Positions 2,599 through 22,406 of a stretch of DNA of 22,406 bases are shown piece after piece. The stretch is from the IMG/VR virus record IMGVR_UViG_3300030101_001522, positions 1-22,406 of that record; one strand, 5' to 3'. The DNA is from a virus. Numbering within the stretch: position 1 is the first letter of the stretch; each line of letters begins with the position of its first letter. The translations under genes and the position numbers were made by a program. The notes under the pieces were generated by a model. That model had not been told where the DNA came from and searched no databases. It saw only the letters and a list, made by a program, of their open reading frames with translations.

Positions 2599-4007
2599 GC
2601 AAAAATATTAAACTCCGATTCAGCTTGTATGTTCATAGGTTCATAGTTTTTAATTCTTGCTTTTCTTAATGACATAACTGCATAACGCATAGCAGATATA
2701 ACATCATCATGAGCTGCAACAATCTTACCATTTTTCCTATGATACATTCTAAGCTCAGTTAAAAGTTTATCTTGATTCTTAAAAATTTTCAATCTTTTTG
2801 TTTGCATTCTTGTATATAGTTCCATAATACCAGCTTCAACTGAGTTACCACCTGAACCTTCTTTTTGTCCTTGTGCTGGTGGGTTACTAAAATGTTCTCT
2901 TGTCATGTTTACACCCTCTGCTCTGTATTGCTCAGTAAGAGATTTACCAGAACCTTTGTCAGCTTGTCTGCCGTCCATAGGCCAGATCACAGGTATCCAG
3001 TTACCTCTTGATTTTATTGCACTCGCATGGATTGGCACAGCCTCTTGTCTAAGAGCATAGCTATCATAAACATACGCTACATCAGCATCTCTATCCCATG
3101 CAATCCATACGGCAGCAGTTGGGTGATCCCATCCAAAATCTAGCCCACATATTCTTGTCCAATGATCTGGTATATCTATTGGTTCACAAACTATTTCATC
3201 TTCTGCCACAGGAAATACAAGACCAGAACCTATTTGTGGTACACCTTGCTCACGCATCTTTCTTTCGTGTGGTGGTAACGCAGCAAGTATTTGCTCTCTT
3301 ATATTTGATGTCATATGAGGTGCATCATCCCAACCAGCTTGTAACAGTGCTTGGCCAGGTCTAAGGTCATTCATAAACTGTGCTACTGTTTCTGTCATGC
3401 CAGACTCAGGTGTAAATGTCATATACACTATGCCACCTCTGTCTGCAGTTCTTGTAAGTGCTTGAGTATATATTGAGGTTGGTGGTTCTTCATCTAACCA
3501 GACTACATCTACAGCTTCACCCATCCATTTTTCTTTACCCATTTCATATGCTTTGAATGCAAGTCTTGACCACCCACCACTAACGTGCTTGATAACTAAG
3601 CTGTTCATAGCATTTGGCACACCTGGTTTTCTAGTTGTATCTCCTATATCATCAAGTGGTATAGATCCTGTACCTTTAGCACTAGGATCATCTGGTTGAC
3701 CTACAAGTTCTTTCTGACATACATCTCTAGTAGTTTCATTTGACACACCACCTACCCAGGCCCTTATAGGTTTATCAAACTTCTTGCCTTTCCACCAGTC
3801 AGGATATTTGCCAGTTAAATGATATGCCATTTCCATAGCACCACAGAAGGATTTTCCTATCCTATTACCAGCCATAAGTAATCTTTGAGATGCTATGGTA
3901 TTGTGAAAGTTTATTTGATACTCATATGGTTTGTAATGTTTAAGTGTATTAGTCGCTTTTCTTTTCTCTAATTCTTTAGCTATTTCTACTGCTCTTTCTA
4001 AACTCAT
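2595..4007 (-). CDS. terL: Terminase large subunit, T7-like
   Basis: This is a 470-aa packaging motor ATPase with a C-terminal nuclease, which docks on the portal, pumps DNA into the prohead and cuts concatemers. Visible motifs are Walker A GNRIGKS at residues 47-53, Walker B VDVVWLDEE at 166-174, the coupling motif MTFTP at 196-200, and the RNase H-like nuclease start GLDFGWDHPTA with D290. A late acidic pair sits at 434-435 in AHDDVISAMRYA. Length and the GNRIGK form of Walker A match terminases of T7-like and related podoviruses. The start overlaps the methyltransferase stop by 4 nt. All catalytic residues I can identify are intact. Confidence 0.95.
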   Translation of the reverse strand: MSLERAVEIAKELEKRKATNTLKHYKPYEYQINFHNTIASQRLLMAGNRIGKSFCGAMEMAYHLTGKYPDWWKGKKFDKPIRAWVGGVSNETTRDVCQKELVGQPDDPSAKGTGSIPLDDIGDTTRKPGVPNAMNSLVIKHVSGGWSRLAFKAYEMGKEKWMGEAVDVVWLDEEPPTSIYTQALTRTADRGGIVYMTFTPESGMTETVAQFMNDLRPGQALLQAGWDDAPHMTSNIREQILAALPPHERKMREQGVPQIGSGLVFPVAEDEIVCEPIDIPDHWTRICGLDFGWDHPTAAVWIAWDRDADVAYVYDSYALRQEAVPIHASAIKSRGNWIPVIWPMDGRQADKGSGKSLTEQYRAEGVNMTREHFSNPPAQGQKEGSGGNSVEAGIMELYTRMQTKRLKIFKNQDKLLTELRMYHRKNGKIVAAHDDVISAMRYAVMSLRKARIKNYEPMNIQAESEFNIFA

Positions 4008-4552
4008 ACTTCATTACCCCAAACATCCCACCCCTCTCGTTTCTGACGAGCAAAAATGTCTATACGATCATCACCTAATGGTTCTATATAATTATAAAAC
4101 TTATTTGGTTTTTGTGAATGTTTAATGTTTTCTGCTTGAAAAACTAATGGTATTAATTTTCTCTTTGGCCATAGTGGTGGTTTTGGTCCATTGTAACCAA
4201 TAGCTATAAACTCTGCGTTCCATCTATAACCATACAAAGGCATACCTGCAGATTTACCATAAGTTTTTTCCCACACACTCATTACAAGATATTTAAATCC
4301 CCAATTTTCTAAAATATTTTTAACATCAAAAATGTACCTTTGAGTAGTCCACAAAAAAATCCATGCTTGATCTTTAGCTACATCTTTGATATTTAGTTGA
4401 CTTATAAGTTCTACACTTTCGACATGATTTTTACCCATAACTTTATAAGGCATATTTTTTTGATTAGCTCTTGTTTTGTGAACTGCTGTTTTTAACCACC
4501 AAGGTGGATCAACAACTATTACATCATATTTCTTTTTTGGCAGATTTAGCAT
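4004..4552 (-). CDS. MT-A70 family adenine-N6 DNA methyltransferase
   Basis: This 182-aa protein carries the catalytic motif IV DPPW in VIVVDPPWWL at residues 15-18, followed by the MT-A70 landmarks WIFLWTTQRY, VMSVWEKT and the HSQKPNKFY segment that corresponds to the AdoMet-binding H-S-x-K-P motif. Such enzymes methylate adenine at N6 in DNA (phage and bacterial members) or RNA (eukaryotic members). It lies between the zinc-ribbon gene and terL, in the packaging operon rather than in the replication modules, so it could modify DNA just before packaging; that is inference. Its start lies inside the upstream gene, a 29-nt overlap. Confidence 0.88.
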   Translation of the reverse strand: MLNLPKKKYDVIVVDPPWWLKTAVHKTRANQKNMPYKVMGKNHVESVELISQLNIKDVAKDQAWIFLWTTQRYIFDVKNILENWGFKYLVMSVWEKTYGKSAGMPLYGYRWNAEFIAIGYNGPKPPLWPKRKLIPLVFQAENIKHSQKPNKFYNYIEPLGDDRIDIFARQKREGWDVWGNEV

Positions 4553-14423: not shown

Positions 14424-14909
14424 ATGGTAGTAAAAAGATACAACAAACCTCTAAGAGAAGTAAGGCCAGATGAGAATAAATTTTATCAAGGAAACGATAA
14501 AGATAAAAAACATTATTGGTTAACACCTCCTGAAATTTACATTCCTCTTGATCAAGAATTTAATTTTGATTTTGATCCTTGTCCTTATCCTCTACCAGAA
14601 GGATTTGATGGATTAACCTGTGAGTGGGGTAAATCTAATTATGTAAACCCCCCTTTTGGATCAATTATTCATGAAGGCAAAAAGAAAGGACCAACAGCAT
14701 GGGCAAGAAAGGCTATGGCTGAAGCTGATAAAGGAAAAGATGTTGTGTTTTTATATCCTATAGATAAATGGATATTAATGTTGCTAGAGTATGGTGCTAA
14801 AGTTCGTAACTTAAAAGATATTAAATGGTTGGCAACAGAAGATAATACTCCAGGCAAAGGCCTAGGTAGGCACATAGCTTGTTTTGTTTTAAAAGGAAAA
14901 ATAGATTGA
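14424..14909 (+). CDS. Dam-family phage DNA N6-adenine methyltransferase
   Basis: This is a 161-aa protein of the phage DNA N6-adenine methyltransferase family (PF05869 type). YWLTPPEIYIPLDQEFNFDF is followed by DPCP at 51-54 and by the catalytic NPPF at residues 75-78 in SNYVNPPFGS. It probably methylates adenine in phage DNA; the recognition site is unknown. No ribosome site is visible, and it starts two bases after the exonuclease stop, so translation is probably coupled. The stop codon lies in the left arm of the inverted repeat at 14901-14952. Confidence 0.85.
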   Translation: MVVKRYNKPLREVRPDENKFYQGNDKDKKHYWLTPPEIYIPLDQEFNFDFDPCPYPLPEGFDGLTCEWGKSNYVNPPFGSIIHEGKKKGPTAWARKAMAEADKGKDVVFLYPIDKWILMLLEYGAKVRNLKDIKWLATEDNTPGKGLGRHIACFVLKGKID

Positions 14910-16138: not shown

Positions 16139-16381
16139 TTAATTTTTTAATGGGTTTTGTATTGTAATTCTAAATTCACTAAGACTTGTTTCTAAAACAG
16201 CTATTCTTTTTTCTAACACAGATATTTCTTTTTGCATAGTCTTTATTGTTTTAGTAGATTTTGATTGTTCTAATTCGTCTAGCCTGTTATTAAATACACC
16301 CCATGTATAGAAGCCTCCTCCAATTGTTGAGATAACTCCTATAAGGACTATATATTTTTTTAATGATTCTAATATATCCAT
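16139..16381 (-). CDS. Small protein with N-terminal TM helix and coiled coil (80 aa)
   Basis: Residues about 10-28 (YIVLIGVISTIGGGFYTWGV) form a membrane helix; the rest is a heptad-like coiled coil (LDELEQSKSTKTIKTMQKEI; SVLEKRIAVLETSLSEF). This N-in topology with a cytoplasmic or periplasmic coiled coil resembles some phage lysis accessory or i-spanin-like proteins. No lipoprotein partner frame was found inside it, so a spanin call is not supported. Confidence 0.72.
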   Translation of the reverse strand: MDILESLKKYIVLIGVISTIGGGFYTWGVFNNRLDELEQSKSTKTIKTMQKEISVLEKRIAVLETSLSEFRITIQNPLKN

Positions 16382-16382
16382 A

Positions 16383-16535
16383 TTACCTACCTATTTTTTT
16401 CTGTGTTGCTTTGTGTGCTGCAGTAAAACTTTTACCAGCTCTCATCATTTTTTTCATCATAGTCATATGTTTTGTTGTATGATGTTTGCTATGTTTTTTT
16501 AGTGTAGCTTTTTGCCTGTCTGTTAATGCTGCCAT
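16383..16535 (-). CDS. Very small basic conserved phage protein (50 aa)
   Basis: The frame from ATG 16535 to TAA 16383 encodes 50 residues: MAALTDRQKATLKKHSKHHT, a Met/Lys-rich middle, and GKSFTAAHKATQKKIGR. I recognise this L-T-x-x-Q-x-x-x-L-K-x-H-S-x-H-H-T...M.x.M...M-x-x-G-x-[ST]-F-x-x-A-H-x-x-A pattern from small marine-phage proteins. The start overlaps the preceding stop as TAATG. Function is unknown. Confidence 0.78.
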   Translation of the reverse strand: MAALTDRQKATLKKHSKHHTTKHMTMMKKMMRAGKSFTAAHKATQKKIGR

Positions 16536-17896
16536 TAATAACCTCTTATTTTTCTTAGCTCTTGTTCAGCTATTTGTCTTTTTATTGTAGCATTTCTAAG
16601 TTTATTTTGATAGTCCTTTACAGGATCATTCATAGAAATAGCTGCATACTTTTTGTTATCAGTATAAATCTTTTTAGTATACTCATCAAGTGTTCGTAGA
16701 TCCTCGTAAGTATTGCCCTCATATATAGCTCTGTTATCTGTGTATTGTTTGTAATAACTAGATATATCTACTTGTTGTTTCTCCATGGACTCAGCAACAA
16801 TAATATTAGTAGCAGCTAGTTGTTTATCTATGCCTTTTACTTTGACTGCTACTTGTGCCTGTACGTCTTGCACATCTACTATTGCCATACTGTTTGCCTC
16901 AGGTTGTTCACCTTGAGGTTCTTCCTGAACTGTTGCCACAGAGGTACTTTCAGTCTGTTCAGGTTGTTCTTCCATGAACTCTTCTGTAGCTGCAGTAGTT
17001 TCTGTAGGCGTTTCTTCTGTAGGTTCTGGCTCTTCTTCAACAATTTCTGGTCCTCCAAATACCTGTAATATTTCTACTTCTTCAAACTCTTCTTCTAAAG
17101 TTTGGATCTCTTCAAATACTATCTCTTCTTCTAATGGTACTATACCTAACTCCTCTAATGCAATAGGCATAGGTATAAATTCTTCTATAAAAACTGGTTC
17201 TTCAAACAACTCTTGCCACTCTACAAACTCTTCTATTACATCTTCTATCTCTTCTATAGTTTGTTGTGGTATTACAGTAGGGTTATAAGTCATGGTAAGT
17301 TTAGCACCTAATAAATTAGGACCACCTAAATTTACAGAACTACCTCCGTCTACACCTTCCCATTCCCAGTAGAACTGGTTACTGCCTGTACCTGTGTAGC
17401 TAACAGAATCCTCATACTTAAAAGCATTGTTGCCATATCCAGCATCATTGTTTCTAGTTTGATTTACTATGGCTAAAGTATTGCCTTCATCATCTAATAT
17501 CTTTACTGTTGTTGTGTAACTGTCTTGCCCTGCTCTAGATTGACCACATTGCCAGGCAGACCCTTGCCACTCACAGTTCTGCACTATGGTAGTAGAGTCA
17601 AGTGTAATACCATTGTCTAGTTGCTGTTGGGTAGCGTGGTCAGTTAGGTTACCAGTATAATTAATACTACCTGTACCTGTAGTTTCTAACTCACCACCCC
17701 AGTCTCTTACAGTTCCTACTACATTAAATCCATTTGTAGATACACTAGGTATTGTGTTGTCTACGTTTTGATAAGAACTTGAGCTGCCTGTACCATTTGG
17801 TAACAGGTTTTCTGTGGTTACGTTTCCTGCAGTGGCTGCCCACGTTATCAAGAATGCAATTAACAATAAGAAACCACATTTAATTATCGTCTCCAT
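16535..17896 (-). CDS. Large exported protein with acidic middle region (453 aa)
   Basis: An N-terminal signal peptide (METIIKCGFLLLIAFLITWA, likely cleavage after ATA at residue 23) is followed by a beta-rich domain at about 25-206. That domain contains a cysteine pair (C108, C117) and Trp/Gly-rich strands (VSYTGTGSNQFYWEWEGVDG). Residues 213-333 are extremely rich in Glu and Pro, and residues 337-453 form a mixed-charge helical domain ending KRQIAEQELRKIRGY. The signal peptide implies transport to the periplasm of the infected cell, unusual for a late phage protein that is not a lysin. It overlaps the 207-aa exported protein gene by 17 nt, so the two are likely partners. No family is recognised. 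Confidence 0.8.
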   Translation of the reverse strand: METIIKCGFLLLIAFLITWAATAGNVTTENLLPNGTGSSSSYQNVDNTIPSVSTNGFNVVGTVRDWGGELETTGTGSINYTGNLTDHATQQQLDNGITLDSTTIVQNCEWQGSAWQCGQSRAGQDSYTTTVKILDDEGNTLAIVNQTRNNDAGYGNNAFKYEDSVSYTGTGSNQFYWEWEGVDGGSSVNLGGPNLLGAKLTMTYNPTVIPQQTIEEIEDVIEEFVEWQELFEEPVFIEEFIPMPIALEELGIVPLEEEIVFEEIQTLEEEFEEVEILQVFGGPEIVEEEPEPTEETPTETTAATEEFMEEQPEQTESTSVATVQEEPQGEQPEANSMAIVDVQDVQAQVAVKVKGIDKQLAATNIIVAESMEKQQVDISSYYKQYTDNRAIYEGNTYEDLRTLDEYTKKIYTDNKKYAAISMNDPVKDYQNKLRNATIKRQIAEQELRKIRGY

Positions 17897-18503
17897 ATAG
17901 TTGATACTCCGTTTGTATTGGTTTAAATTCTGTTTTTCTATCTATAGCTGCTCTTCGTTTTAATTTCTGTACGTACTTATCATAGTCAGGTCTTTCTACA
18001 TCATACTTCTTCCATTGCTCCGTTGCTGCTTCACCTATCTGTCCTTCGAATGGACAAGGAGTTCCAGCGTTTTCCATAGCACTAAACACTCTATCATCTT
18101 GACACAGTATAGCTATACTAGCTACACGCATATTAAAATCATACAGTAATTTACTAAGTTTCATTCTTTCACAATTCTCATCTATTATATAGCTTCCTGC
18201 TGCTACTCCAAAACCAGTTACTTGCATTGATCCTGACAAACCTACTATACACAAGTCTTGTGAATAACTACTCATGCTAGGTGCTATTGCAGAGCTTACT
18301 GGTATTGCTTGACTTTCTGTCGTGTTACTCGTGCTATTGGTCGTGGTGTTAGTTTGACCTCCTGAGTATGTGTTCGTGGTCGTTGACGTGTAACCACCCG
18401 ATATAGACGTGTTACTGCCTGAAGTATTGGTCTGATTAGACGTACTATTATCTGTCGCATATACACCTATGGTTAAAAATAAAAAAATAATTATATGTTT
18501 CAT
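17880..18503 (-). CDS. Exported Ser/Thr/Asn-rich protein with four-cysteine domain (207 aa)
   Basis: A short signal peptide (MKHIIIFLFLTIGVYA) leads into a 48-residue low-complexity stretch of Thr, Ser and Asn, then a compact domain with four cysteines (DLCIVGLSGSMQVTGFG, DENCERMKLSK, ILCQDDRVFSAM, GTPCPFEG), which could form two disulphides in the periplasm. A basic helical tail follows (YVQKLKRRAAIDRKTEF). I have seen the DENCE..kLs....C.D.Rvf.Am...GTPCP pattern among uncharacterised phage proteins, but know no function. Its start overlaps the holin-like gene stop (ATGA). Confidence 0.8.
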   Translation of the reverse strand: MKHIIIFLFLTIGVYATDNSTSNQTNTSGSNTSISGGYTSTTTNTYSGGQTNTTTNSTSNTTESQAIPVSSAIAPSMSSYSQDLCIVGLSGSMQVTGFGVAAGSYIIDENCERMKLSKLLYDFNMRVASIAILCQDDRVFSAMENAGTPCPFEGQIGEAATEQWKKYDVERPDYDKYVQKLKRRAAIDRKTEFKPIQTEYQLYGDDN

Positions 18504-18877
18504 TTCTTTCCAAACATACCAGCTGCTGGTTTAAGTCCATATATAGCTCCAAAAATACCTATCAATAACCATTGATACCATTGAGGTAATCCATTAAAGT
18601 ATTGGAAGAACAGATCTAGCTTTTCTTTCATCATGTCATCACCAAAAAATACAGCATATGCTAGTACCAGTATAGGTAATGATACAATGACAAGAACAAA
18701 CTCGTCCTTCCATCCATTATTATTATCTGCTCTTACTTGAGCTTGGTAGTCTATCTCTCCCTGAGCCATGCGATACATATGGTTGCGTTCTGCCATAGCT
18801 TCGTATTTCTTAGTTTCTTGTCTTTGTTTAAAACAATCTACTGCTGTTGATACTACTGCTCCTAACAATCCAAACAT
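18500..18877 (-). CDS. Holin-like membrane protein (125 aa)
   Basis: The start is taken at ATG 18877, where AAGGAG lies just upstream and the previous stop overlaps as TAATG; the frame extends further but overlaps the neighbour. The 125-aa product opens MFGLLGAVVSTAVDCFKQRQ, has a charged helix, then two membrane segments (FVLVIVSLPILVLAYAVFF and WYQWLLIGIFGAIYGLKPAA). This M-F-x-L-L-x-A start with membrane helices in the C-terminal half resembles holin-type proteins of marine and alphaproteobacterial phages and gene transfer agents. The role in lysis is inferred from topology and the neighbouring small membrane proteins. Confidence 0.65.
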   Translation of the reverse strand: MFGLLGAVVSTAVDCFKQRQETKKYEAMAERNHMYRMAQGEIDYQAQVRADNNNGWKDEFVLVIVSLPILVLAYAVFFGDDMMKEKLDLFFQYFNGLPQWYQWLLIGIFGAIYGLKPAAGMFGKK

Positions 18878-19089
18878 TATGTACTCCTTAAAATTAGCTC
18901 TCTTATTACAATAATCATTTGTGTACCCACCACTAAGGCAACAGTCCATATTATTTTTTTAATATTATTAATATCATCTTCTATGTGTCGTAGATGATTT
19001 TTTTCTATAGTTTCTATAGATTTGTGTATCAAACGTATATCACCTTTCATGCGTTCAATCTCTACAGTCAACTCGTTATTGCTCAACAT
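18877..19089 (-). CDS. Coiled-coil protein with C-terminal TM helix, XhlA-like (70 aa)
   Basis: The start is placed at ATG 19089 (70 aa), inside the 3' end of the previous gene; an extension to 19149 reads through that gene's cysteine-coding region in another frame and is unlikely. A coiled coil (LTVEIERMKGDIRLIHKSIE; DDINNIKKI) is followed by one membrane helix (WTVALVVGTQMIIVIREL). This layout matches XhlA-type hemolysin/lysis accessory proteins. Its last codons hold the AAGGAG site for the holin-like gene. Confidence 0.65.
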   Translation of the reverse strand: MLSNNELTVEIERMKGDIRLIHKSIETIEKNHLRHIEDDINNIKKIIWTVALVVGTQMIIVIRELILRST

Positions 19090-19812: not shown

Positions 19813-20549
19813 TAATCAATGTACTCCCATTCAAAAACAATTAAACCACTGCCACCAGCAGAACCATTAGCACCACCATTGCCATTACCACCTGAGCCAC
19901 CTACTCCAACACTATAAACATAATTAGCACCTTCAGCAGTAAAATTAGTAAAACTAAATTTTATGGCAGCACTACCACCGCCACCAGCTCCACCTCTACC
20001 TGAGCCATTTCCAGCACCACCTGCTCCACCATTACCTACCCCTGCTTGATATACTGATTCTGTATTTCTTGCACAAACTCCACCAGCTTCCCCAGTTGAG
20101 TCTGTGTCCATATTACTTCCAGCATTACCTGCTACATTATAAACTTGGTTGTTTCCAGTTCCAGTGCCTCCAGCAGCTCCACCACCATTACCATTTCCTG
20201 TAGCATTACCTTTTCTACCAAAGCCATTACCTAAAGATAAATTTATACTTACTCCAGTTCCATCCGTACTACCAGTTACAGTACATGAAGTACCACTACC
20301 ATCTGTACCTGCACTACCATTTCTATGACCTGATTTAACATCAAATGAACCACCACCTTGTCCACCACCACCACCAGCCCACATATAAATATTTAAAAAG
20401 TTATAAAATTTACCTGCCTGAGTGTTAAAAGTAGCGTTAGTACCTGATGTAAATGAAGAGCTACCTGTTACTAGAACAATAGCTGTTGCTGCTCTTTGTC
20501 CAAAAGCATTAGCACTTGCTTGTCCTATTGTTGTAATTATTGGTGCCAT
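19812..20549 (-). CDS. Glycine-rich tail fibre tip/adhesin-like protein (245 aa)
   Basis: This is a 245-aa protein. After an N-terminal segment (MAPIITTIGQASANAFGQRA) and a beta-strand region, most of the protein consists of glycine-rich blocks (for example MWAGGGGGQGGGSFD and GAGNGSGRGGAGGGGSA), ending in GSAGGSGLIVFEWEYID. This composition and the GSGLIVF ending match glycine-rich host-recognition proteins such as the gp38-type adhesins, which form polyglycine II helix bundles with variable loops at the tip of a fibre. It lies directly behind the T7-like tail fibre gene (TAATG), in the position of a fibre tip protein. Confidence 0.8.
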   Translation of the reverse strand: MAPIITTIGQASANAFGQRAATAIVLVTGSSSFTSGTNATFNTQAGKFYNFLNIYMWAGGGGGQGGGSFDVKSGHRNGSAGTDGSGTSCTVTGSTDGTGVSINLSLGNGFGRKGNATGNGNGGGAAGGTGTGNNQVYNVAGNAGSNMDTDSTGEAGGVCARNTESVYQAGVGNGGAGGAGNGSGRGGAGGGGSAAIKFSFTNFTAEGANYVYSVGVGGSGGNGNGGANGSAGGSGLIVFEWEYID

Positions 20550-22406
20550 TATGCGAACTGTGTCTGGCTTGTCAGCATTGTGAAAGCTGCATCTCCTGTT
20601 TTAATTATAGTATATGTATATACATCTATGCTGTTAGCATTACCAGCTGAGTATGCAGTGCCTCCTTGATTCTTTGGAGTAATGCTACTACCATCTACTT
20701 GGAAAGCATTATTGTATTTAGCTGAACTACCATTTGTAACTAAAAATACTGCAGTAACTACATCACCTGTGTCCATAATACTATTTAATGTTGTACTACC
20801 ATCTCCTCTAAAATTAACTGTAAAGTTACCACTTGCATCACTAGTAAAATATAATATTGATTGCGTTTTTAGATCATAATTAATAGTACCAGTTGCAGCA
20901 GTCGCTGATATGGTTGCAGTTTCTTGCACGTGTTTTGTTAGCGTAGCTGAATCTAATGTTTTATTTGTTAAAGTATCAGTTGTTGCTCTACCAACTAATG
21001 TGTCTGTAGCAGATGGCATTGTTAATGTATTGCTACCACTTGCTTGATTTAATGATGCAATAACAGGTGTAGTTAAAGTTTTATTTGTAAGTGTTTGTGT
21101 TCCATCATTTAATGTTACATTTGAACTAAGTCTAGCATCAGCTAGTGTTCCTGATGAAATATCACTAGCACTTGTTGCAGTTGGTGCTACAGCTGCCCAT
21201 GATGAACCACTATATACTTTTAATTCATTTGATGAACTATTAAAATATAATGCACCTGTAATTAAAGAATCTCCATCATTGTCGGCAGAAGGATCAGAAG
21301 ATTTAGCTCCTAAATATCTATCATCAAAATTATCAAAACTAGATGCTGCACTTGTTGCACTTGATGCAGCTGCAGTCGCTGAGTTACCAGCATTTGTTGC
21401 TGAAGTAGCTGCATTAGTAGCTGATGTACTAGCTTCACTAGCTTTTGTTGTGGCAGTAGATGCACTACTACTAGCACCACTTGCACTTGAAGCTGCTGCT
21501 GTTGCTGATGATGCAGCATTAGTAGCAGACGTAGCTGCTGCTGTAGCTGAATTACTAGCATTGGTTTCACTTGTGGCTGCTGCAGTTGCTGAATTACCTG
21601 CATTAGTTTCAGATGTTGCAGCATCAGATGCTTTAGAGGTAGCTGTAGTTGCAGAACTAGCAGCAGAAGTAGCTGATGATGCTGCTGCAGTTGCACTATT
21701 AGAAGCATTAGTTGCCTGTGTACTTGCTGTACTAGCTGAAGTAGAAGCATTTGATGCACTTGTAGATGCTTCAGATGCTTTTGTTGTTGCTGTAGTAGCT
21801 GAAGAGGCAGCTGCTGTCGCAGAAGTAGATGCACTGGTAGCACTTGTTGCTGCACTTACAGCATCTACTAATAATGCAAAATGGTCTGTATCTGTTAAAG
21901 AATCTCCTACAACTGCATCTGCTATACAAATATATACGTTGTTCAGTTCTGATGATGTTGTTGATTTTATTATATCTCTTTGCACATAGGCTTCAGTAGT
22001 TACTGTAGCGTCTGTACCCTTAAAAGTACCTAGTTCTTGTGTAACTGAAATTTCACCACTTGTATCAAAAGCAAGAATTTTACTTGCTCTATCAGTAGCA
22101 GATGTGGTAAAGTCAGTAGAGGTCATAGTATTTGTTCTGGAAATTTTTATGCTTCTATCTATTTGTTCTTGAAGTTCTTGTGCTATTGCTAAGTTTTTAT
22201 CAAATGCACCTTCTACAGAGTCTGCTGTAAATGGATCATTTTCAACAAGATCAAGTGTTTGTGTTTGTGTTGTAGATCTTCTAATAACTACTGTTTCCGT
22301 AGCTGTAGGTATATGTCCAGATTCAAAAACTACATTACCACCTGATGCGTTACCAGCACCAGTTACGGTATAATGTGTTGTTAAAGTTTTTACAGTTTCT
22401 GTACCT
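20549..22406 (-). CDS. T7-like tail fibre protein, 5' end beyond the window
   Basis: The frame is open from the right edge to 20549, so the gene starts outside the window; an internal ATG at 22126 is not the start. The upstream 93 codons hold the T7 gp17 N-terminal pattern: HYTVTGAGNASGGNVVFESG, TETVVIRRSTTQTQTLDL, ENDPFTADSVEGAFDKNLAI, QELQEQIDRSIKIS. This domain attaches the fibre to the tail. Next comes a strand-rich linker, about 175 residues of Ala/Ser/Thr heptads expected to form a trimeric coiled coil, and a C-terminal beta-rich region with repeated TLTNKTL motifs, ending TSQTQFA. At least 618 residues are present. Confidence 0.9.
   Translation of the reverse strand, partial: GTETVKTLTTHYTVTGAGNASGGNVVFESGHIPTATETVVIRRSTTQTQTLDLVENDPFTADSVEGAFDKNLAIAQELQEQIDRSIKISRTNTMTSTDFTTSATDRASKILAFDTSGEISVTQELGTFKGTDATVTTEAYVQRDIIKSTTSSELNNVYICIADAVVGDSLTDTDHFALLVDAVSAATSATSASTSATAAASSATTATTKASEASTSASNASTSASTASTQATNASNSATAAASSATSAASSATTATSKASDAATSETNAGNSATAAATSETNASNSATAAATSATNAASSATAAASSASGASSSASTATTKASEASTSATNAATSATNAGNSATAAASSATSAASSFDNFDDRYLGAKSSDPSADNDGDSLITGALYFNSSSNELKVYSGSSWAAVAPTATSASDISSGTLADARLSSNVTLNDGTQTLTNKTLTTPVIASLNQASGSNTLTMPSATDTLVGRATTDTLTNKTLDSATLTKHVQETATISATAATGTINYDLKTQSILYFTSDASGNFTVNFRGDGSTTLNSIMDTGDVVTAVFLVTNGSSAKYNNAFQVDGSSITPKNQGGTAYSAGNANSIDVYTYTIIKTGDAAFTMLTSQTQFA
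21334..21859 (-). repeat. Ala/Ser/Thr heptad repeat region of the tail fibre
   Basis: Variants of S-A-T-x-A-x-S, such as SATAAASSATSAASSATTAT, recur about every seven residues over roughly 175 residues. The DNA repeats in 21-bp steps. This is a typical low-complexity coiled-coil shaft and a likely site of length variation by recombination. Confidence 0.85.

Follow-up and report, generated by a model that had tools for sequence, protein, structure and literature searches.

Phages of SAR11 bacteria are among the most abundant marine viruses. Phage-made envelope systems with which their late genes can be compared include two-component spanins such as lambda Rz/Rz1 and T4 PseT.3/PseT.2, the small receptor-masking lipoproteins T5 Llp and those of the Cor type, and the curli (type VIII secretion system, T8SS) systems of SAR11 and OM43 phages (pelagimyophages and Melnitz), for one of which a part in lysis has been proposed (PMC9004378). 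Here, we analyzed the 22,406-base virus record IMGVR_UViG_3300030101_001522, which is fragmentary and is called the window below, and found that two adjacent genes in it, P2 and P1, form with a third, P5, what is, as judged from sequence comparisons, a widespread module of phages of abundant ocean bacteria. Since the large terminase (TerL) of the window is nearest to that of Pelagibacter phage EXVC032P Baldr (79% identity, the top match among 427 matching phage records), the host of the window phage is probably SAR11.

A preliminary description of this DNA had singled out two overlapping late open reading frames (ORFs) of 453 and 207 amino acids (aa) sharing 17 nt, and both were confirmed. A GGAG sequence lies about 10 nt ahead of the P1 ATG, and the commonest P2-P1 gap among relatives was also −17 (13 loci); the P1 start is supported by this spacing and by the recurrent gap. 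The parts of the module in the window are as follows.

17880..18503, minus strand: P2, exported-type protein of 207 aa, PHROG 20531 (match 4.3e-14)
18300..18449, minus strand: P2 residues 19-68, Ser/Thr/Asn-rich spacer (70% S/T/N), low model confidence
18009..18257, minus strand: P2 residues 83-165, four-Cys core, the best conserved region (alignment and model)
17880..17896, minus strand: overlap of the P2 and P1 genes, 17 nt (ORF calls)
16535..17896, minus strand: P1, exported-type protein of 453 aa (ORF call, alignment)
17279..17824, minus strand: P1 residues 25-206, predicted beta-sandwich head of sugar-binding-type fold, allele I in the window (model and fold search)
16883..17179, minus strand: P1 residues ~240-338, predicted acidic disordered spacer (model and composition)
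16544..16873, minus strand: P1 residues 342-451, predicted helical tail, whose divergence tracks P2 and P5 (model and pairwise identities)
16139..16381, minus strand: P5, 80 aa, N-terminal transmembrane (TM) segment, coiled-coil-like body, C-terminal ...QNPLKN, third module member

The module resembles lambda Rz/Rz1 and T4 PseT.3/PseT.2 in that P5 is a small, coiled-coil-like protein with an N-terminal TM segment, in that genes overlap, and in that the exported partner or partners carry cysteines and a disordered segment. It differs from two-component spanins in that P1 is a non-lipoprotein with a predicted beta-sandwich head and an acidic spacer, in the presence of an additional conserved protein, P2, and in having no Rz profile match over the cut-off. 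T5 Llp and Cor proteins are likewise phage-made envelope proteins and act on host surface receptors, but they are small lipoproteins, whereas the module has three other parts, as a rule without a lipobox. The phage curli systems are also exported phage systems of SAR11 or OM43 phages; they comprise outer-membrane pore and fiber genes, whereas P1, P2, and P5 gave no curli match in the Pfam and PHROG scans.

Searching viral contigs with the single P2 sequence revealed 152 P2-encoding stretches (80 loci kept), and an alignment query revealed at least 598; individual loci are designated by L numbers below. Among 50,697 phage records, the same 11 carriers were obtained with any of three queries, namely, the Pelagibacter phages Baldr, HTVC202P, HTVC033P, HTVC023P, HTVC115P, and Mosig (141 kb), the Votkovvirus S28-C10, two Roseobacter phages, and two spring-water phages. 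A fold search added a twelfth carrier, Achromobacter phage phiAxp-2, which a profile match (E 2.1e-12) confirmed; in this phage (L299; 44598-45155 and 45216-45710), a distant P2 relative lies beside an exported-looking Ser/Gly-rich gene.

The genes surrounding P2 were then counted over 170 P2 ORFs (95% non-redundant), from which 33 with less than 2 kb downstream were dropped, leaving 109 pelagiphage-type and 28 roseophage-type loci (137 together). A same-strand P1 followed P2 in 102 of the 109 pelagiphage-type loci (within 60 nt in 78, within 300 nt in 12 more, and within 1,500 nt in a further 12). Of these 102 loci, 99 also have P5 behind P1, in most cases only a few bases from the P1 stop. 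Thus, P2 and P1 do stand side by side in nearly all pelagiphage-type loci with adequate flank, but the two-component system of the preliminary description has to give way to a triplet. The constant member is P2 rather than the pair: phages of the Roseobacter type retain it, usually together with a P5-like gene, but have a different middle gene.

Leaving out the loci fetched by the P1 query gave 107 P2 loci, 100 with P1 and 97 with P5, and leaving out the genome-bin loci as well gave 96, 92, and 92, respectively; the 19 genome-bin loci, which come from bins of many phyla with some contigs of >100 kb, were taken as phage DNA and are included in the counts. Because P1 head and tail profiles separately found P1 within 300 nt (85 and 83 of 137 loci, respectively), its detection is no artifact of the acidic stretch. 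The seven loci counted without P1 were L118, L286, L288, and L290 (no match), L202 and L217, which are very weak P2 matches that fit the roseophage lipoprotein query described below, and L121 (HTVC115P), which fell outside the −120 nt limit and, with its own protein in the P1 profile, was not counted as found. HTVC115P gp53 has a P1-like anatomy and matches the P1 profile that includes gp53 itself, and a profile built without the carriers, or with close relatives, found P1 in 6 of the 11. P1 without P2 was encountered at 9 of 189 loci, the 7 listed having 0 to 171 nt upstream.

The anatomy initially ascribed to P2 was borne out, with a signal-like start, 70% S/T/N over residues 19-68, and four cysteines (85, 111, 134, and 150), which were invariant throughout a 90-row alignment. 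Cysteines placed as for periplasmic disulfides had been noted in both proteins; for P1, no conserved disulfide was shown, since C7 is within the signal peptide and C108 and C117 have no counterpart in the aligned heads of the second type. The alignments used for structure prediction held 89 of 198 usable P2 rows and 68 of 115 usable P1 rows, each with the window added and L111-L122 left out. P2 had no PDB match by sequence. A fold search with the P2 model also gave nothing usable, but as that model was confident only for about residues 101-190, this does not show a new P2 fold. Against Pfam, P2 produced only a sub-threshold match to New_glue over its first 66 residues (17.2 bits; cut-off, 31), and a BFVD search returned nine matches with E ≤0.001, all unnamed or uncharacterized, and phiAxp-2 at 0.0011. 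PHROG 20531, which has no assigned function, was also matched by the P2 relatives of CRP-207, CRP-810, and phiAxp-2.

For P1, the signal-like N terminus, the beta-rich part, and the helical end described earlier were likewise recovered, using a home-made N-terminal rule and an AlphaFold2 model based on 69 aligned sequences (mean predicted local distance difference test [pLDDT], 66; predicted template modeling score, 0.47). The model comprises a mostly confident beta-sandwich to residue 206, a helix at 211-230, a low-confidence region at 238-338, and helices within 342-451; over residues 51-206, the pLDDT of 10-residue blocks was mostly 79 to 97, with lower values at 101-120, 151-160, and 181-190. 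The 126 residues from 211 to 336 include 42 Glu, 11 Pro, and 1 Asp and no Lys or Arg, and the label Glu/Pro-rich is therefore right about Glu, while Glu-rich with some Pro is a better description. Among relatives, P1 ranges from 409 to 800 aa.

The nearest solved fold to P1 residues 20-204 was the sugar-binding domain of Fbs1 (2rj2; Z 16.3, root mean square deviation 2.6, 156 residues), and further matches were to phage tailspike domains (Z 12.5) and to CBM16 and CBM61 (Z 11 to 12). The P1 head is thus predicted to be a beta-sandwich of the sugar-binding type, a shared fold being no proof of sugar binding. Unlike CBM16, CBM61, and the Fbs1 domain, which it resembles in this predicted fold, the head has no Pfam match and, as part of a phage envelope module, is followed in the same protein by an acidic spacer and a helical tail. 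P1 as a whole matched no Pfam family and no PHROG at E up to 1, and the five histone H2B sequences returned from the PDB by sequence were taken as a composition effect.

Export was judged throughout by the home-made N-terminal rule and not by SignalP. Signal-like starts were found by this rule in 103 of 105 P1 proteins, 129 of 134 pelagiphage-type P2 proteins, and 26 of 28 roseophage-type P2 proteins. Among the remaining called genes near the module with a length of ≥150 aa, the figure was 59 of 592. Lipobox-like motifs were present in 5 of 105, 4 of 134, and 0 of 28 of these proteins, respectively.

In 98 of 101 P5 proteins, a TM segment began at or before residue 45 (hydropathy rule), and the median net charge of +1 before and −1 after this segment fits an N-in orientation. 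An NP[LIVMF] motif followed by up to four residues closed 99 of 101 P5 proteins, compared with 282 of 13,510 ORFs of 40 to 250 aa (P5s included). The seven proteins underlying the P5 profile all have this ending (NPL); in a profile-free check, the longest ORF directly after P1 ended in NP[LIVMF] in 93 of 100 cases. The P5 query matched four phage records, all of them module carriers. The window P5, the body of which appears coiled-coil-like by eye, matched the XhlA-type PHROG 1193 (E 0.0011) ahead of PHROG 739, "Rz-like spanin" (E 0.0018).

The P1 heads of 92 complete triplets were assigned, at a 40% identity link, to type I (56, the window included), type II (34), and type III (2), and types I and II are distantly homologous (hhalign, 98.8%). 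When the head label was placed on a P2 tree of 90 modules, 19 changes were required, 15 of them forced by well-supported branches, whereas 500 shuffles required 27.6 on average, although recombination inside P2 could inflate the count. The head label is therefore clustered yet often switched. In five pairs of modules, the P2 core (≥93%), the P1 tail (≥89%), and P5 (≥91%) were closely similar, but the heads were only 16 to 25% identical. In the pair L105/L064, the head and the first part of the spacer are replaced between 9.6 kb of upstream DNA of 97.7% identity and 7.1 kb of downstream DNA of 92.1% identity, and this single-domain swap is a natural experiment on head recognition.

Partial correlations of pairwise identity were 0.48 between P2 core and P1 tail, 0.32 between P2 and P5, and 0.34 between tail and P5, while those of the head were 0.10 to 0.13 (0.07 to 0.18 for the 3,133 pairs with a P2 core of ≥60%). 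The head thus lies physically between P2 and the tail and yet follows both little. As far as these identities indicate, what distinguishes the head is jumping and not evolutionary rate.

The roseophage-type loci, none of whose 28 members matched the P1 profile, carry a different version of the module. A common alternative middle gene is found in CRP-207, CRP-810, and ct7L0027 and, as judged by eye, begins in a signal-like manner in several loci, and a downstream TM protein ending in NPL is present in 23 of 28 loci. Just upstream of P2, a small lipoprotein-like ORF, detected with a CRP-810/CRP-207 query, ends inside the longest P2 frame in all 25 loci that extend 600 nt upstream. Of 19 such ORFs, 6 satisfied a strict lipobox rule; in the others, inspection by eye showed a Cys behind a hydrophobic N terminus. 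Among phage records, relatives of this ORF were found in the three roseophage-type records only. Its mature part aligned with the P2 core (C-[EQ]-R, AA, and [LM]-C-x-D) with 97.0% probability over 39 columns, compared with ≤3.2% for column-shuffled controls (n = 30), and three of the roseophage proteins matched PHROG 20531 weakly (0.004 to 0.007). From these alignments, the P2 core seems to exist in soluble exported and lipid-anchored forms, which would place the work of P2 at the outer membrane.

In the CRP-810 and CRP-207 records, the lipoprotein-like gene before P2 (L117, 7558-7818; L120, 1725-1940) has no annotation, and in CRP-810 it is directly preceded by a TM gene, gp54. The "lysozymes" of these phages, CRP-810 gp51 (L117, 9162-9584) and CRP-207 gp73 (L120, 3292-3873), are really TM, NPL-ending, P5-like proteins without a lysozyme match in Pfam or PHROG; because these two queries had produced an apparent lysozyme in 28 of 28 roseophage-type loci, that count was not used as evidence for lysins.

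The genes around the module in the window are as follows.

16383..16535, minus strand: P4, 50 aa, basic, Lys/His/Met-rich, PHROG 31838, between P1 and P5
18500..18877, minus strand: P3, membrane protein of 125 aa, PHROG 2524, holin-like by context
18877..19086, minus strand: P7, 69 aa, helical, C-terminal TM segment, weak XhlA-type match (E 0.017)
20549..22126, minus strand: tail fiber gene of the same late operon, PHROG 38058

The holin-like and XhlA-like genes said to lie upstream of the pair are there as P3 and P7, but the XhlA-like gene that matters is P5, which lies downstream. P3 is 51% identical to the HTVC010P gene after a peptidase M15 and 39% identical to an HTVC106P gene near an M15A peptidase, a cluster of proteins similar to P7 by eye stands upstream of P2 in 23 loci, and Mosig_203, the annotated gene before P2, passed the Pfam GTA_holin_3TM cut-off of 24.8 bits narrowly (25.8; 24.9 in a second scan). 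In HTVC023P, P5 is followed by a peptidase M15 with overlapping stop and start, and in L026, the order is tail fiber, P3-type gene, P2, P1, P5, TerL, and a lysozyme-domain gene; TerL likewise lies behind the module in Baldr, HTVC202P, and S28-C10. In T7, the interval between fiber and TerL holds the holin, the small terminase TerS, and Rz/Rz1, and the L026 module, lying between fiber, holin-type gene, and TerL, resembles this order. An "N-acetyl-anhydromuranmyl-L-alanine amidase" of S28-C10 (L119, 14532-14840) reads as a hydrophobic membrane protein, so its annotation is doubtful.

The preliminary description had noted that no lysin is visible, and none was found among the 20 window proteins that were scanned, although the record is a fragment. 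In Baldr, the lysozyme lies beyond a phosphodiesterase and a small gene, at about the position of the Dam gene in the window, and the window phage may therefore have a lysin in the missing part.

We also compared the module with two spanin architectures. P5 has the layout of an i-spanin (N-terminal TM segment plus periplasmic domain, by the hydropathy rule), but the lipobox of an o-spanin was, as a rule, missing, as was a match to the Rz family over the cut-off. No lipobox was found at the end of the signal peptide of the window P1 or P2 or in the window P5, and none of the three combines an N-terminal lipobox with a C-terminal TM segment as a unimolecular spanin does. The Rz profile PF03245 had no match over the cut-off in the 11 module genomes, its one sub-threshold match being in a 463-residue frame. 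Scanning for lipoboxes by rule yielded no candidate in Baldr, HTVC202P, HTVC033P, S28-C10, HTVC026P, HTVC010P, or 30 kb of HTVC106P and one doubtful match in HTVC023P. With no lipobox as a rule and no Rz match over the cut-off, the module does not qualify as a spanin on the tests made; it may still work like one.

Taken together, we tentatively favor a reading, possible rather than probable, in which P2, P1, and P5 are one envelope complex, late by position, that acts at lysis. Support for it comes from the conservation of the triplet, the export-type N termini, the predicted fold and the exchange of the head, the correlated divergence of P2, the P1 tail, and P5, and the lysis-type genes near the module in some relatives. 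This reading retains the unusual lysis component of an envelope complex put forward in the preliminary description, as the best reading at hand, without its two-component form. P5 would sit in the inner membrane, with its coiled coil reaching into the periplasm and ending in NPL, and the helical tail of P1 would join P5. The acidic disordered spacer of P1 would bridge the periplasm, the head would hold an envelope glycan (lipopolysaccharide [LPS] or peptidoglycan), and P2, possibly stapled by disulfides, would be the conserved organizer on the outer-membrane side. Once the wall is cut, such a complex would tug at the outer membrane or make holes in it and thus do the work of a spanin although no o-spanin lipoprotein takes part.

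Several observations weigh against a lysis complex of this kind. A holin-type gene was near only 19 of 67 good-flank loci (16 P3-type and 3 GTA-type). Queries with ten proteins annotated as lysins found 37 matches over 142 pelagiphage-type loci and at most 11 over 95 loci in any 1-kb bin; farther than 2 kb upstream of P2, there was no match. The Baldr lysozyme is far from the module, the GTA-holin match of CRP-810 is about 25 kb from P2, the L026 lysozyme fits tail lysozymes best and endolysins second, and for CRP-810 gp54, PHROG 462 "lipoprotein" (4e-10) is a far stronger match than the Rz-like spanins are (0.083). P1 and P2 are, as a rule, without a lipobox, and HTVC026P, organized like HTVC202P, does not have the module. 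The divergence data cut the same way: the P1 tail is on average not more conserved than the head (medians of 0.69 for the head, 0.58 for the tail, and 0.67 for P5 in 252 pairs with a P2 core of ≥90%), 182 pairs have heads of ≥60% and tails of <42% with 74 pairs in the reverse case, and the correlated pairs share descent, which contributes to the correlations. Finally, an exchangeable head would be more usual in recognition proteins.

The HTVC202P module (L113, 6965-9674) and the HTVC026P cassette (L322, 7622-8799) are alternatives between common flanks before TerL. The cassette comprises a TM/coiled-coil gene (PHROG 20984), an exported-looking Cys protein (PHROG 24646), and a small Cys-rich protein. 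Since HTVC026P lacks the module at that place, the module is replaceable; the families of the cassette also occur beside the module (TM/coiled-coil in 17 and PHROG 24646 in 13 of 67 loci), so they are not strict substitutes.

A bolder version, which we consider rather unlikely, is that the module represents an undescribed class of envelope machine for opening the outer membrane, built from the P5 coiled coil, the P2 organizer, and a lectin-headed P1 whose two-allele cartridge would tune lysis to host surface chemistry, the Roseobacter-type version using a lipid-anchored P2 core and another tether.

Among the alternatives, surface masking survives best, as a doubtful but serious candidate: exported P1 and P2 would bind host LPS or capsule late and so block virion adsorption to the cell or its debris, P5 and P2 would anchor the lectin-like P1, and the two alleles would correspond to two glycan types. 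The predicted sugar-binding-type fold of the head speaks for it, as do the dimorphism of the head, with its 19 parsimony changes (15 forced) on the P2 tree, and the L105/L064 replacement within near-identical DNA. In a study of Mediterranean metaviromic islands, moreover, genes for a "putative carbohydrate binding domain" are the commonest identifiable ones (PMC3909814), and a P1 relative with a uvMED name bears this label. Masking is harder to reconcile with neighbors that are late and in part lysis-type genes and with modules that, unlike T5 Llp, have no lipobox as a rule, and nothing places P1 at the cell surface. In the only pair compared for this purpose, L026/L037, the fiber pieces are 74% identical (90 to 100% over the last 56 residues), but the heads are 23% identical, and the head thus does not follow the fiber tip there.

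It is improbable that the module alters the infected cell instead of ending it, as an exported adhesin or nutrient-capture device comparable to the pelagimyophage curli. Other exported systems do exist in SAR11 phages, such as the curli genes of HTVC008M (PMC9599517). The head allele also has no strict tie to endolysin type, as type I occurred with five and type II with three endolysin queries in a small table, from which the "amidase" and a "peptidase" of S28-C10 were left out; two HTVC033P endolysin queries (3 and 4 loci) occurred only with type I, too few to conclude. Against such a device stand the late operon, the lysis-type neighbors in part of the relatives, and the absence of an outer-membrane pore gene from the module.

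That P1 is a virion receptor-binding or fiber protein is very unlikely in spite of its exchangeable sugar-binding-type head, its position near tail fiber genes, and such an interpretation of island carbohydrate-binding genes (PMC3909814), because signal-like starts in nearly all P1 and P2 proteins, against 59 of 592 other genes, clash with the assembly of virion parts in the cytoplasm, separate tail fiber genes exist (one in the window phage itself), P1 is inherited together with a TM protein, its exchangeable domain is placed behind the signal peptide instead of at the C terminus, and it has no PHROG match. No virion family was matched by P1 or P2 in the scans made, so that this objection foreseen in the preliminary description did not refute it, and no virion mass spectrometry of these genes was found in a literature search that included the accessible part of PMC11288001.

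Literature searches, with most subscription journals outside their reach, listed no publication recognizable as dealing with the three genes of the module. Read as a lysis complex, the module is a concrete candidate for the breach of the outer membrane by SAR11 phages, given 11 carriers without an Rz match over the cut-off, and it supplies a hypothesis for PHROG 20531. It may also call into question the virion receptor-binding reading of some "carbohydrate-binding" genes of marine phages: if the 14 such island genes are P1 relatives, their signal-like starts would argue for action in the envelope and not in the virion.

P4, whose gene overlaps the P1 stop by one base, was found in 1 of 67 counted module loci and is therefore outside the core. 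The window also contains two methyltransferase genes, Dam (PF05869) and MT-A70 (PF05063), at 14424-14909 and 4004-4552, respectively.

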